Origin: an uncultured Synergistia bacterium
GTDB taxonomy: Bacteria; Eremiobacterota; SpSt-956; JAKJGF01
Direction of reading: 5' to 3'
Length of the DNA: 5,185 nucleotides
Assembly (NCBI GenBank): GCA_937888925.1
Contig: CALARM010000014.1
Span: 1 to 5,185, forward strand
Part shown: positions 1 through 5,185 of the stretch, piece by piece
Layout: each line of letters begins with the position of its first letter
Numbering within the stretch: position 1 is the stretch's first letter
Made by a program: the position numbers and the translations under genes
Notes under the pieces: model-generated
Seen by the model: the letters and a program-made list of their open reading frames with translations, nothing else
Databases searched by the model: none
What the model was told of the DNA's origin: nothing

Positions 1-249
1 GGGCTTCAGGCTATTTTTGAAGAAGCAAAAATCAGTCATGAAGACAGAAAATATTTTACATCCTGTATAAATAAGGCTATTACAACAGATGAAATAAAAA
101 AAGAATTGAATGAATATAACCATACAAGAGAAGAACTGGAGGAAATAATAGAATTATGCTCTACTCTGGGAAGGGTTGATAAATTAAGTAATGAAGAGAA
201 ACTGGTTATAAGAAGACTCAAGAATATATTCGGTCTGGAGAAAGATTGA
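1..249 (+). CDS. C-terminal fragment of a small helical, TerB-like protein (5' end outside window)
   Basis: The frame is open from base 1 to the TGA at 247-249 and gives 82 residues with no in-frame ATG, so the start lies upstream. The sequence is rich in Glu, Lys, Leu and Ile and looks all-helical. The last 35 residues (ELCSTLGRVDKLSNEEK followed by a helix ending in IFGLEKD) resemble the final repeat of TerB/DUF533-type domains, where a small-residue-x-Asp turn is followed by an acidic 'xxEE' helix start and a helix ending in Gly-Leu. The usual ADG turn reads GRVDK here, so the metal-binding character is weak. TerB-like domains occur in stress-response and membrane-associated proteins, but the role here cannot be inferred from a tail. 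The coding call is good because codon use matches the neighbours and a hairpin follows the stop. The family call is tentative. Confidence 0.6.
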   Translation, partial: GLQAIFEEAKISHEDRKYFTSCINKAITTDEIKKELNEYNHTREELEEIIELCSTLGRVDKLSNEEKLVIRRLKNIFGLEKD

Positions 250-271
250 TCCTTTCATGAAGGATTTTCTT
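249..271 (+). terminator. Short intrinsic terminator after the TerB-like gene
   Basis: ATCCTT (249-254) pairs perfectly with AAGGAT (260-265) around a five-base TCATG loop and is followed by TTTCTT (266-271). The 6-bp stem begins on the last base of the TGA stop. The stem is short and the T tract is broken by a C, so it is probably a leaky terminator. It is the only candidate separating this gene from the lipoprotein gene. Confidence 0.5.
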
Positions 272-323
272 AAACATAAAAGAAATTATAAAAATGATAA
301 GAACCTGAAAAAGGAGATTTATT

Positions 324-614
324 ATGACTTTAAAAAAAATCATAACACTATCAATTGCTCTACTAATAATCCTGTCTATTGTGTCCTGCACAGCCGAAAA
401 CTCAAATGTAAATGAAAAAGCCAGCGAATTTAACAGTAAAGGGAGTGACTTAAAAAGAGAAGCTTCCTCTCTATTTAAACAGGGAAAACCTGATGAAGCA
501 GGCAAAAAACTGGAAGAAGCTCTTACATGTTATGATGAAGCTTTAAAAATAGACCCGAATTATACAAAAGCCAAGGAAAACAGAGCAGAAGTTTTAAAAG
601 CACTGGGAAGGTGA
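324..614 (+). CDS. Small TPR-containing lipoprotein
   Basis: This is a 96-residue precursor. Residues 1-21 form a lipoprotein signal peptide: K4-K5, a hydrophobic core (I6-L17), then the lipobox I19-V20-S21-C22, so C22 should be lipidated and anchor a mature protein of about 75 residues to a membrane. After a polar linker (23-45), residues 46-79 form a TPR-like helix pair ending in the typical YDEALKIDPNY signature, and residues 80-95 look like the first helix of a next repeat or a capping helix. AAGGAG at 311-316, seven bases before the ATG, supports the start. The TPR part suggests a docking or scaffold role, with no catalytic residues expected. The gene lies six bases upstream of another TPR gene, so the two are probably co-transcribed and may interact. 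The exact function is unknown. Confidence 0.85.
   Translation: MTLKKIITLSIALLIILSIVSCTAENSNVNEKASEFNSKGSDLKREASSLFKQGKPDEAGKKLEEALTCYDEALKIDPNYTKAKENRAEVLKALGR
608..614 (+). promoter_or_regulatory. Ribosome binding site overlapping the upstream stop codon
   Basis: AAGGTGA lies inside the last codons and TGA stop (612-614) of the lipoprotein gene. It is six bases before ATG 621 and nine before ATG 624. The overlap suggests translational coupling. Spacing is acceptable for both ATGs, so the start of the next gene is uncertain by one codon. Confidence 0.5.
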
Positions 615-620
615 GATAAG

Positions 621-1184
621 ATGATGAAAAACCGTAAAGGTGAAGAAATTATAGTAGAAAATGACAGAGGAAGCATATGTGTACATTTGCTGGATAAAAA
701 GGGATTTACTCTGGCCTGTGAGGAAATTGAGAAACTTGTAAAATTAATAAACAGCCATAATCCTCTTATGATAAGTACAAAACCTCTTTATGAATATGGT
801 ACATTTGTGCTGGCACCGAAAGGAAAAGAGCTGGAATTTAAACCACAGTGGTGGGCTGTGGAAAACAGTAAAAAAGAAGGAATTGAAAATGTTTTAATTT
901 CCGATAAAAGCGAATTCTGTAAAGTTCTTGAAGGACTGAAAGGTTTTGCTCTCTATGATCTGGGGAAATTGCAGGAGTGTCTCATAGCTTTTGATAAAAT
1001 ACTGGCAAAAGAGACCAATACAGATATGCTGAAACAAAAAGGTTTTGCTCTCTATAAACTCAAAAGATATGACGAAGCAAAAGCCTGTCTTGACAGGGTT
1101 GCTGAAATAGCGCCGGATAAAGTAAATGTGGAAATGAACAGAATTCAGGCGGATATAAAGGAAAAAATTCAAAGTCAATTATAA
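621..1184 (+). CDS. Cytoplasmic protein with unknown N-terminal domain and two C-terminal TPR repeats
   Basis: This 187-residue protein has no signal peptide or membrane segment and is probably cytoplasmic. Residues 1-100 are an unrecognised, probably alpha/beta region with a Q-W-W at 76-78. Residues 103-133 and 136-168 are two TPRs: 'LKGFALYDLGKLQECLIAFDKIL' is mirrored by 'LKQKGFALYKLKRYDEAKACLDRVAEIAPD', with the expected G/A/Y helix-A pattern and the 'DEA' helix-B pattern. The final helix (170-187) would cap the array. The gene begins six bases after the upstream lipoprotein gene, also a TPR protein, so the pair reads as one operon. A shared 18-nt sequence in the two repeats suggests internal duplication. 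The start could be ATG 621 or 624. Likely role is protein-protein interaction. I do not recognise the family and cannot assign a partner. Confidence 0.85.
   Translation: MMKNRKGEEIIVENDRGSICVHLLDKKGFTLACEEIEKLVKLINSHNPLMISTKPLYEYGTFVLAPKGKELEFKPQWWAVENSKKEGIENVLISDKSEFCKVLEGLKGFALYDLGKLQECLIAFDKILAKETNTDMLKQKGFALYKLKRYDEAKACLDRVAEIAPDKVNVEMNRIQADIKEKIQSQL
939..956 (+). repeat. First copy of an 18-nt direct repeat inside TPR 1
   Basis: AAAGGTTTTGCTCTCTAT encodes KGFALY of the first TPR. An identical copy lies exactly 99 bases (33 codons) downstream in the second TPR. Confidence 0.9.
1038..1055 (+). repeat. Second copy of the 18-nt direct repeat, inside TPR 2
   Basis: This is identical at all 18 bases to 939-956, in the same frame and again encoding KGFALY. 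Sequence around the two copies has diverged (for example DLGKLQE against KLKRYDE), so only the helix-A core is identical. Confidence 0.9.
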
Positions 1185-1192
1185 TTATATTT

Positions 1193-1206
1193 CGTGACGC
1201 GTGACG
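1193..1206 (+). repeat. Tandem 7-bp direct repeat (CGTGACG x2)
   Basis: CGTGACG at 1193-1199 is followed immediately by CGTGACG at 1200-1206. The tandem copy overlaps the left arm of the large inverted repeat. It could be coincidence, slippage, or a paired protein-binding site. Confidence 0.6.
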
Positions 1207-1273
1207 GGTGGAAACAATTCCTGCCGGTGTCAACAGAGGCACTGAACAAAAAAACTGTCCTCCCGCCACGCGT
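1197..1273 (+). repeat. GC-rich 77-bp inverted repeat / structured hairpin between the TPR gene and the GH57 gene
   Basis: The left arm ACGCGTGACGGGTGGA (1197-1212) pairs with the right arm TCCTCCCGCCACGCGT (1258-1273) at 14 of 16 positions; the mismatches are A1204/C1266 and T1209/T1261. Inside the 45-base loop a second hairpin is possible: CGGTGTC (1225-1231) with GGCACTG (1238-1244), seven pairs including two G-U, and a six-base AACAGA loop. By hand count, bases 1193-1273 are 46/81 G+C, far richer than the flanks. The right arm is followed by TTATAATTTTTATTATT, so terminator function for the TPR operon is possible, though the T run is interrupted. Other options are a leader RNA or operator for the downstream gene, or a dispersed repeat. 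I recognise no Rfam-type riboswitch core. Confidence 0.75.
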
Positions 1274-1279
1274 TATAAT
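1274..1279 (+). promoter_or_regulatory. Candidate -10 box (TATAAT) upstream of the GH57 gene
   Basis: A perfect TATAAT starts one base after the right arm of the inverted repeat and 40 bases before the start codon at 1320. No good TTGACA-like -35 is seen at the 16-18 base spacing (sequence there is about AAAACTG). Because the region is AT-rich, a chance match is possible; the same hexamer also occurs at 1180-1185. If the box is used, the -35 region would fall within the loop and right arm of the inverted repeat. Confidence 0.3.
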
Positions 1280-1306
1280 TTTTATTATTATAAAAACACC
1301 TGTATC

Positions 1307-1313
1307 GGGAGGA
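1307..1313 (+). promoter_or_regulatory. Strong ribosome binding site fixing the start of the large gene
   Basis: GGGAGGA lies six bases before ATG 1320, an excellent Shine-Dalgarno match at good spacing. The next in-frame ATG (1338) has no comparable site, so 1320 is chosen. Confidence 0.8.
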
Positions 1314-1319
1314 TAAAAT

Positions 1320-4300
1320 ATGAATATTTACGAACAAATGATAGAACTCTTTGAAATCATAGAACCACAGAGCACCAGAACCTTTATGTATGTGGAAGAT
1401 GAAACATTCGGTCTTAAAAAACTTATTGAAGATTTTCTGGAAGGTAAAAAAGGTCTATTAACATTAGAATCTCTTATGAAATTTCAAAAATTTGTAGAAG
1501 AAAAAAATATGACTTCTGTAATAATACCTTTCAGGGAAGCCATAAGAAGAACAATAGAAAGAACTCTGGCTGCATACTCCGGCAAAGCCATATTTTTCTC
1601 GGACCACCATCATATCTATCAACCTGACAGATATGATGTGAAATTCGCAGATTACATACATGAAAAAATCTGTAAAGAATGTTACGATTCTATGTCAAAG
1701 ATATATCAATATTATTCTGTAAATATTGGCCCCACCCTTTTAGAATGGTTCAGGCAGAAAAGACCTGACATAATGGAAAGACTGATAAAAGCCAGCAGAC
1801 GGGAGCCGGTTATGGCCCAGACCTATACCCATCAAATACTTCCTCTTATAAGAAATGAAGAAGACCTCAGAGTAGAAATCACAGGAGGTATCAAATACAG
1901 GGATCTGATATTCGGCCCTTTACCTGAAGACAGTTACAGAGGCATATGGATACCCGAATGTACCATAGGTATAAGAGAAGCTAAATGTCTTGCAGAAGAA
2001 GGGGTAGATTTTATCATATTGAGAGGCGATCAGTCTGCCTATTTTATAAATACGGTAAAGCCTTATAAAATAAAATGGGAAAAAGAAGATGGAGAAAAAC
2101 TGGAACTTATGGTTTTTTATTATCACCATTTCAGTAAAGAACTCTCTTTTGACAAATGGACTACAGATAATCCCCATAATACAATGAACCATATGTTAAA
2201 AAACATACCTCATAACAGCATGATACTTCTTGCCCATGATGGTGAACTTGTCCATCACAGATGGGAATACTGTCATGCAGACGTATCGGGATTTTTCAAA
2301 GAACTGCCTGTAGAAATATACAGAAGAAAACATCCTTCTGTCATAATGATGACCCCTTCCCGTTATATTCGATTTCTGAAGATGAAAGCCATGCTTGAAG
2401 GCAGGGAATTTTCACTTCCCGAAACGGAATTGCCTGATTTTCCCACATCCTGGTCATGCGGAGGCTATGAAATCAAGTCCTTTACAACACTTAAAGGCAT
2501 AGACATAGAACAGTTAATGAACAGTTCAGACAGAGATATTATAAGATATTATTCAGAAATGCTTGTAATAAGAAAACTCCAGGGAGGAACAGTTGACCCG
2601 GTAGATGATAGTCAGTGGGAATATTTTGTTACGGAGCAAATGGAAAAATTCAAACAGGAAGAGACCTTTCCTCTGAGCAGAAAAAGAAAAGAAGAAATAA
2701 GAAGAGACATGTACAGAGGAGTAAATGTCTGTTATGACATAAGAAGATTTAATAAAATAAAAGCAGGAGGAGCGGGCCGTTGGGCTTTCGGCAGTCTTGA
2801 CTCAGGTAATTCGGATTATCAAACCTATCTTCGTGAAGCAGTAATGATAATAGAAGATAAAGTAATGGAACTGTTTAAAGAAAAAGTTAAGCCATGTTTT
2901 AAAGATATAGTGAAAGCAAAAGCAGATTTTATGGTCTTCAGACTTGACGAGCTTGAAATCCCCGATGAAAATGAAGAAAAATTCGAATATCTGAGAAGCA
3001 TCTATCCTTCCATAACAGAAGAACAGGCCTGTGTCTATCAATCAAAAGAAGATTTTTTTGAAAAACATCTCATAATGCCTCTCTATGAAACAGAAAAAGA
3101 TGAAATATGGTCACTGTTCTGCATATGGAACAGGATGAGAAGAGCCTATACATCATGTGCATACTTTTTTGATGATTTTAACAACCATGTGGCAGAAGAT
3201 GCAGTACTCCGGGCAACAGAAGCAGTATTCCTTATGGAAGAGCATTTTAATATTAAAGTAAGTCATGATTTTTTAGAAAAACTCAAAGCATGTAAAAGCC
3301 GGTACAGAAGAGAGAGAAATCAGGGGCCCGATCTGTCTGCAGACCGTGTGGCAAAGATTCATCTGAATATTCTTAAACTTGAAAAATCAATCACCTCCAT
3401 AGAAAAAATAAGTAAAAACAGTTTCATGGAATATATAAAAAGCGGAAAATATTCCCTTCCCCACCCAGCCTCTGACGTACAGGAATATTACCGTGCCTTT
3501 GTAAATGAAGAACTGGCAGGTTTTACAAGCAGAGAAGGCATTGAAGAACTCCTGTCCAAAACATCGAGAGAAGTAGCAAGAACCAGGGAAGCAGTGAAAA
3601 TTGTAATAGAAAAAAGAGATCTTACAGCAGGTGATATACTGAGCAGATTCAGAATAGATGTAAATTACGACCAGATTGAACCGGAAAAACCTTATCTTAT
3701 ATCGCCTGTAGATAATGATGTACTTATATCTACGGAAATAGAAGAAAAACTTCAGGAACATGTCTCTTCTTTTTATGTGAATAATATGTCTCTGTGCCTG
3801 TCAGATTATGGCGTAGAAATGAAGAAAGTGAAAAATGTATTTATAGATCCGGAAAAAATTATACTGGAAGGTTCAAATAATGATGGTAAAAACAGAAGAG
3901 ACGGAGCATCCAATCCTCTGTGGGAAATTTACTTCGCTGAAGGACAGAAGATATGGGATCTGGCAGCATGGACGTTTAATCTCAGGGTTATAAGAAAAGA
4001 GATAAAAAAGATAAAAGAAGAAATAGAGAAGATTGAAGAAATAGACACTTATGGACTGGAAAAGTTCTATAATAATCTTACAACTCTTTACAGGGAAGTG
4101 GGACATAAAGAACTTCTTTACGGAGAAGACGGGAAAAGCGGCCTTAAAGGGTTTATTGAAGAGAATAATATTACAGAAGGATTAAGTGGCTATCTGGCTG
4201 CTAACCCGGGTATATTTCCTGAGAGTCATATGAAAATCCTGCAGGATCTGCTCATATATGAACTTTTCTTAAAACATGATAATTCCATAGGTCATTATGA

Positions 4301-5185
4301 ACTGAAGCAGAAATATGACAGTGGAAGATCTCTCAGCCTTTATGAATCGGTAACGGAATATTGTACAGAACATGATATTCCTTACTCTCATGAAATCTAT
4401 GTCCATAAAGTGTGGAAATATCAAAAAGACAGGTTAAAATACTACAGGGAACTGCTGGAACAGGAAGAAAAAACAAAGGCATTTCTTTCAGCCAATATGG
4501 CAGTAAAAGAAATAGGAGAAGAATCTTCGTACAGTCTCATTACATACCCTGCAGTTTATGTTCACGGTGCGGCAAATGAAGAAAATTTCGAAGGTTTTTA
4601 TCCGGATAATGAAGCCATTCCGGAATTTGCTATGAGACACATACAAAGGAATACAAGACTATTATTTCTGCCTGGCAGTGTAGAAATGGAAGGACAACTG
4701 GAATATTTCAGGAAAATGCAGCGTTATCTCCTTGAAAAATTCAGTATCAATGATGTAAAAGCAGGTATTTTTGCATGTGGTTCTCAGAAGGAGTTAGATA
4801 CCTTTACAGAAAGAGAAGAAACAGGTAAGGAATTTTTCCTGATACCTTCTATGGAAGGAGATATGTCCAAAAAATATTTCACACAGGACAGACTTAAAGA
4901 TACAGGTTCAAAACATCTGGAATTTGACAGAGAGAAAGAACTCGATTTATTCGAAGATTATATGAATAAAAGCGATATAATATACCTGGGAGGAGGATGG
5001 TCTACCATATCTGGATTGAGACATCATGACCTTCTGTTAAATTCGGGGAAAAAATTCAGAGATAGTCTGAAAGAATTTATCTTAAGAGGGGGCCTTCTCA
5101 TGGGAGTAAGTGCCGGTGCCATGTGTATGGGTATGGAAAATATTCTCTATACTCCGAAAGCAAAGACATTTGAAGGCAAAATAGA
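1320..5185 (+). CDS. Giant GH57/DUF3536 glycoside hydrolase-like protein fused to an S51 peptidase-like domain (3' end outside window)
   Basis: The frame is uninterrupted for 1288 codons and still open at the window edge. No signal peptide or membrane span is seen, so it is probably cytoplasmic. Residues 1-90: unrecognised helical extension. Residues 90-370: GH57 catalytic barrel with HHHIYQP (96-102), NIGPTLLEW (135-143), WIPEC (210-214; E213 presumed nucleophile) and HDGELVHHRW (306-315; D307 presumed acid/base). Known GH57 enzymes act on alpha-glucans by a retaining mechanism; DUF3536-type members are mostly uncharacterised. Residues 376-690: DUF3536-like, with TSWSC (376-380), GAGRW (484-488) and YTSCAYFFDD (610-619). 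Residues 690-1105: unrecognised, with a charged helix at 891-909. Residues 1110-1288: S51-type alpha/beta fold, with FLPGS (1116-1120), IIYLGGGWST (1220-1229) and GVSAGA (1262-1267; S1264 presumed nucleophile). The His and acidic triad members would lie beyond the window. The strong RBS at 1307 sets the start. Domain calls are firm; substrate and activity are unknown. Confidence 0.9.
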   Translation, partial: MNIYEQMIELFEIIEPQSTRTFMYVEDETFGLKKLIEDFLEGKKGLLTLESLMKFQKFVEEKNMTSVIIPFREAIRRTIERTLAAYSGKAIFFSDHHHIYQPDRYDVKFADYIHEKICKECYDSMSKIYQYYSVNIGPTLLEWFRQKRPDIMERLIKASRREPVMAQTYTHQILPLIRNEEDLRVEITGGIKYRDLIFGPLPEDSYRGIWIPECTIGIREAKCLAEEGVDFIILRGDQSAYFINTVKPYKIKWEKEDGEKLELMVFYYHHFSKELSFDKWTTDNPHNTMNHMLKNIPHNSMILLAHDGELVHHRWEYCHADVSGFFKELPVEIYRRKHPSVIMMTPSRYIRFLKMKAMLEGREFSLPETELPDFPTSWSCGGYEIKSFTTLKGIDIEQLMNSSDRDIIRYYSEMLVIRKLQGGTVDPVDDSQWEYFVTEQMEKFKQEETFPLSRKRKEEIRRDMYRGVNVCYDIRRFNKIKAGGAGRWAFGSLDSGNSDYQTYLREAVMIIEDKVMELFKEKVKPCFKDIVKAKADFMVFRLDELEIPDENEEKFEYLRSIYPSITEEQACVYQSKEDFFEKHLIMPLYETEKDEIWSLFCIWNRMRRAYTSCAYFFDDFNNHVAEDAVLRATEAVFLMEEHFNIKVSHDFLEKLKACKSRYRRERNQGPDLSADRVAKIHLNILKLEKSITSIEKISKNSFMEYIKSGKYSLPHPASDVQEYYRAFVNEELAGFTSREGIEELLSKTSREVARTREAVKIVIEKRDLTAGDILSRFRIDVNYDQIEPEKPYLISPVDNDVLISTEIEEKLQEHVSSFYVNNMSLCLSDYGVEMKKVKNVFIDPEKIILEGSNNDGKNRRDGASNPLWEIYFAEGQKIWDLAAWTFNLRVIRKEIKKIKEEIEKIEEIDTYGLEKFYNNLTTLYREVGHKELLYGEDGKSGLKGFIEENNITEGLSGYLAANPGIFPESHMKILQDLLIYELFLKHDNSIGHYELKQKYDSGRSLSLYESVTEYCTEHDIPYSHEIYVHKVWKYQKDRLKYYRELLEQEEKTKAFLSANMAVKEIGEESSYSLITYPAVYVHGAANEENFEGFYPDNEAIPEFAMRHIQRNTRLLFLPGSVEMEGQLEYFRKMQRYLLEKFSINDVKAGIFACGSQKELDTFTEREETGKEFFLIPSMEGDMSKKYFTQDRLKDTGSKHLEFDREKELDLFEDYMNKSDIIYLGGGWSTISGLRHHDLLLNSGKKFRDSLKEFILRGGLLMGVSAGAMCMGMENILYTPKAKTFEGKI

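Follow-up and report, generated by a model that had tools for sequence, protein, structure and literature searches.

A GH57-DUF3536 protein joined in one chain to a divergent S51-fold domain in a few uncultured bacteria

The closest described counterparts of the protein reported here are, on the glycoside hydrolase side, the free-standing GH57-DUF3536 proteins, to which PoGH57 of Pontibacter belongs (PMC11206854, in excerpt), and the GH57 4-alpha-glucanotransferase/branching enzymes (1k1x, 3n8t), and, on the peptidase side, the cyanophycinases (CphB, 3en0/7uqw; pseudo-CphB, 7uqv) and peptidase E/aspartyl dipeptidase (1fy2, 7ffp). A gene that joins a GH57-DUF3536 part to an S51-fold part was analysed in a stretch of 5,185 nucleotides from an uncultured Synergistia bacterium (contig CALARM010000014.1, positions 1 to 5,185), called the window below. 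An earlier note, made from the letters of the window alone, had not recognised this architecture as a described system, and none was found in the literature searched, most subscription papers lying outside that search; GH57 and cyanophycinase co-occur there only in separate places of a text, and no paper on pseudo-CphB was found. Databases already contain fusion-type proteins, whose names (for example 'peptidase E' or 'Peptidase family S51') are taken from the C-terminal part.

Sequence comparison or modelling gives a GH57 fold with candidate catalytic residues and an S51 fold which keeps Ser and His and has no acid at the usual place. We propose, at a rough probability of 0.45, that the protein is a GH57-DUF3536 alpha-glucan enzyme joined to a divergent Ser-His hydrolase with a non-cyanophycin substrate. 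It would be a two-part, probably cytoplasmic enzyme, the N-terminal half of which would act on alpha-glucan with a retaining mechanism; a 4-alpha-glucanotransferase or a related amylase working on a glycogen-type glucan is most likely. The middle region would connect this half to the S51-fold domain, which may hydrolyse an amide, ester or peptide; a presumably active Ser-His site would thus be physically tied to the glucan enzyme.

Layout of the chain and its conservation

The fusion gene (1320..5183; this and all its features lie on the + strand) starts with an ATG, 6 bases behind the Shine-Dalgarno-like GGGAGGA (1307..1313) read from the sequence, and forms the unbroken frame that the earlier note had described; it encodes residues 1-1288 of 1403 and continues past the window end. 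The complete protein, P0001, consists of 1403 residues and differs from the window by 4 substitutions over the 1288 residues. The seven GH57, DUF3536 and S51 motifs named in that note were all found, each once in the frame: HIYQP (residues 98-102), NIGPTLLEW (135-143), WIPE (210-213), HDGE (306-309), YTSCAYFFDD (610-619), IIYLGGG (1220-1226) and GVSAGA (1262-1267). The S51 turn lies 601 residues past the DUF3536 signature and not about 650 as had been estimated.

The Pfam comparison suggested in the earlier note placed all three families over their cut-offs in the window protein: GH57 (PF03065) with 60.2 bits (cut-off 21.2) at residues 110-358, DUF3536 (PF12055) with 51.9 bits (cut-off 25) at residues 504-679, covering profile positions 9-156 of 284 only, and Peptidase_S51 (PF03575) with 24.1 bits (cut-off 23.9) at residues 1199-1273. 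The last one passes by only 0.2 bits because the window edge cuts the domain, and its score rises to 38.4 bits in the complete P0001. NCBIfam gave no match for the fusion protein, and a signal peptide was not apparent at its start by inspection, no predictor having been run. In nucleotide positions, the GH57 catalytic barrel (approx. residues 85-360) corresponds to 1572..2399 and the DUF3536 match to 2829..3356, with YTSCAYFFDD at 3147-3176. The middle region (residues 690-1070; 3387..4529) is predicted to be mixed alpha/beta and then helical; these approx. 380 residues match no Pfam family and were modelled only as part of the relative P0005. The first 218 of about 333 residues of the S51-fold domain occupy 4530..5183, the remainder lying beyond the window; the IIYLGGG turn is found at 4977..4997, and Ser1264 of GVSAGA, the candidate nucleophile by alignment, at 5109..5111.

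A whole-protein search of 5.8 billion proteins, whose whole-length reach was about 709-2254 aa, returned 11 matches at E <= 1e-5, P0001 included, and at this level only the fusion family. The GH57 Pfam match (E <= 0.01) was present in all 11 and the complete set of GH57, DUF3536 and S51 in 10 of them; the ten relatives are 40-86% identical to P0001. P0005 (1146 aa, on a contig of 3482 bases) ends at the S51 start. Since its C-terminal 103 residues recur unchanged at the start of the S51-carrying P0012 (residues 1-103), the two are probably one gene divided between two contigs.

The gene is unbroken in two whole genomes of one phylum, G001 and G006. The record of G001 carries the label Bacillota, and the relative P0006 is labelled Candidatus Eremiobacterota, a name which NCBI taxonomy resolves to Vulcanimicrobiota; the host of the window is probably a member of this group. 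In the survey of the phylum 11 of 149 genomes matched the fusion profile; the match spanned the full profile in 2 of them and was limited to 70-113 positions within the GH57 part in the remaining 9; DUF3536 was matched in G001 and G006 alone among the 149, in both by the fusion gene itself. No copy turned up in viruses, whose contigs yielded 65 pattern matches and no relative, or in plasmids, which gave no match; the two genome-contig scans found no locus and one locus, respectively.

An assembly error had been named in the earlier note among the things that would refute the fusion. The window does terminate inside the S51 domain and several of the sources are metagenomes, as might be expected of an artefact of assembly or gene calling; however, the same layout is seen in P0001 and in nine relatives that are 40-86% identical, and the frames run without a break in G001 and G006. 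Because this layout recurs in nine other full-length relatives from several sources, an assembly join is very unlikely, and the probability of an artefact can be regarded as negligible. The single-chain GH57-DUF3536 and S51-fold protein is conserved in a few uncultured bacteria.

The GH57-DUF3536 half

The N-terminal half shares with the free-standing GH57-DUF3536 proteins both Pfam matches and the TSCx[WYF]F signature. Apart from P0005, the search gave 54 hits; these free-standing relatives are separate chains of 427-840 aa, to which the fusion adds the S51-fold part. The signature is present in 50 of them, mostly as TSCGWFF, so YTSCAYFFDD had fairly been taken as a mark of DUF3536. A precomputed S51 Pfam match was found in none of the 54, the reach of this search being about 380-1207 aa. 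DUF3536 is scarcely mentioned in the literature searched, and since domains joined in a single chain frequently serve the same pathway, the fusion chain offers a lead to the function of DUF3536-type GH57 proteins.

The C-terminal neighbour and DUF3536 are likewise additions in comparison with the GH57 4-alpha-glucanotransferase/branching enzymes, with which the fusion has the catalytic barrel and the nucleophile alignment in common. Its model has the (beta/alpha)7 barrel fold of GH57, and the candidate nucleophile, Glu213 in WIPEC (1956..1958), is aligned to position 183 of the TK1436 chain 3n8t, the Glu of WLPEC. Asp307 in HDGE (2238..2240) is a candidate proton donor by its motif only, an assignment leaning on the general description of GH57 in a part of PMC6037648. 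Both residues are invariant in 11 of 11 proteins. The fingerprints of GH57 branching enzymes, given as HxHLP and ELF(Y)GHW in excerpts of PMC11206854, are absent from the window protein, which has HHHIYQP and ELVHHRW at these places. A glycogen/starch synthase (PF08323) was matched in both fusion genomes, G001 and G006.

The S51-fold domain and the alternatives for its function

The C-terminal domain has the S51 fold. For this part, two profile searches against solved structures returned 7uqv, 3en0 and 6nqc (E 0.0095-0.24) and 7uqv, 3en0, 6nqc and 7uqw (E 0.018-0.073), all with weak E-values. YopH phosphatase entries over part of the S51 stretch (profile searches, E 0.05 to 0.99) were taken as chance, and searching the PDB by sequence with the window protein brought up a single match, which was insignificant (E 0.31). 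The domain search, with a reach of proteins of about 190-600 aa sharing exact 5-residue words, found three matches at 59-65% identity on contigs of 1337-4101 bases, which appear to be fragments of the fusion family.

The solved structures matched, at those weak E-values, are cyanophycinases plus one cyanophycinase-like peptidase, which speaks for joint turnover of glycogen and cyanophycin; a hint of cyanophycin or Asp-X turnover had been given in the earlier note. The pocket residues of CphB include Asp172, Arg178, Arg180, Arg183 and Gln101, according to a partial text of PMC3235067. In all 13 fusion sequences the first four, at the ungapped positions His-2, +4, +6 and +9, are replaced by Gln, Tyr, Ile/Leu/Met and His/Gln, respectively; Gln101 falls at an alignment gap, and a Gln within 10 residues after GGG occurs only in P0006. 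The fusion also differs from the cyanophycinases in being joined to GH57 and in having Thr at the place of CphB Glu201. No cyanophycin synthetase exceeded the cut-off among the best 5 candidates of each of G001 and G006, whose completeness is not given (138.2 and 145.2 bits at best, against 850); similar sub-threshold matches are listed for all 149 genomes. A synthetase over the cut-off was found in five of the 149 (G008, G009, G132, G133 and G134), none of which has the fusion. About 190 bases separate the synthetase of G008, and likewise that of G009, from an S51 gene bearing the cyanophycinase motif; likely cyanophycinases are thus present in the phylum, but elsewhere than in the fusion. 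Cyanophycin turnover was rejected on the replaced pocket residues and on the lack of a synthetase match over the cut-off in G001 and G006, and joint turnover with glycogen appears highly improbable.

The nucleophile Ser of GxSAG and the GGG turn are kept in 13 of 13 sequences, the Gly of GxSAG being Thr in 6 of them. The catalytic His and the acidic residue of the triad had been expected beyond the window in the earlier note. The His (His1301) was found there, within QVH[FY]EEYG in all 13; the acid was not, its position (His+27, residue 1328) being held by Thr in every one.

This loss is one of several observations which weigh against the proposed two-part enzyme. Asp or Glu stands at the acid position in 29 of 29 phylum comparison domains that reach it; with Thr in its place the S51 site may be dead. 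The GH57 model is of moderate quality (pLDDT 71.8, with barrel stretches below 50), and the matches that Foldseek alone found for it were weak (best E 3.6e-4, with a TM-score by query of 0.12). The free-standing GH57 relatives are distant (20-31% identical, with 21-44% of the query covered), so transfer of a substrate from PoGH57 is weak. Finally, the genes around three copies of the fusion (the window, L001 and L015), judged mostly by eye, are not conserved, and no glucan gene was seen beside the fusion at these three places.

The missing acid is also the strongest reason to doubt any chemistry in the C-terminal domain, which could instead be a pseudo-enzyme, binding a ligand or forming dimers and so regulating or positioning the GH57 enzyme. 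The fused S51 clade moreover sits on a long branch (1.86, support 1.0) in a tree that leaves its nearest relative unsettled, and none of 2212 candidates of comparable length was recognised as a free-standing S51-like relative (E <= 0.01). On the other hand, the nucleophile is often lost in pseudo-enzymes, while here Ser, His and the GGG turn are all retained. We regard the pseudo-enzyme as a serious, if doubtful, explanation. A divergent Ser-His hydrolase is preferred mainly because Ser, His and QVHxEEYG are constant across two subgroups which are only 39% identical in the S51-like domain.

For the acid itself two replacements were considered. In class I glutamine amidotransferases it stands at His+2 (H-x-E); such a relocation is weakened here, since PepE-type S51 domains of the phylum also commonly have Asp at this position (HYD/HFD). 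Asp1327, beside the Thr, is a possible substitute. An S51-fold branch that has naturally lost the acid usually found in the triad would test the capacity of the fold to work as a Ser-His dyad.

A canonical bifunctional protein, in which an active alpha-glucan enzyme is combined with an active PepE-like Asp-X dipeptidase, seems unlikely. According to parts of PMC11078827, the third triad residue (typically Glu/Asp) of dipeptidase E Orf2, D198, is essential, the mutant data being unshown there; this position is Thr in the fusion by alignment. From peptidase E/aspartyl dipeptidase the fusion differs in this residue as well as in its extra middle region and GH57 half. A further, rather improbable extension of the proposed two-part enzyme would be a new class of bifunctional enzymes: an alpha-glucan-remodelling GH57 and a Ser-His hydrolase, its triad acid displaced or dispensable, would work successively on a single conjugate, e.g. 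an amino-acylated or peptide-bearing storage glucan.

Neighbouring genes

The only neighbours that the window, L001 and L015 were seen to share are proteins with TPR repeats, identified by eye in L001 and L015; such proteins occur elsewhere in the fusion genomes too. In the window two short TPR proteins lie upstream of the fusion (324-614 and 621-1184, + strand), the first of which begins lipoprotein-like by eye, with a hydrophobic stretch followed by Cys. Positions 1-249 (+ strand) are the last part of a gene whose TerB match, at 19.1 bits, stays below the cut-off of 24.4.

Another S51 protein of G006 (L025, 712-2151), 479 aa long, is unusual and has an N-terminal extension; no similar solved structure was found for it by sequence. 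It lies approx. 3.7 kb from a glycogen synthase match of that genome with other genes between, a proximity taken as chance. The next gene downstream of the fusion in L001 is DnaB-like and lies on the opposite strand. In L015 (G006) a gene resembling a hybrid histidine kinase by eye (10533-13247) overlaps the end of the fusion by 4 bases in an operon-like manner.
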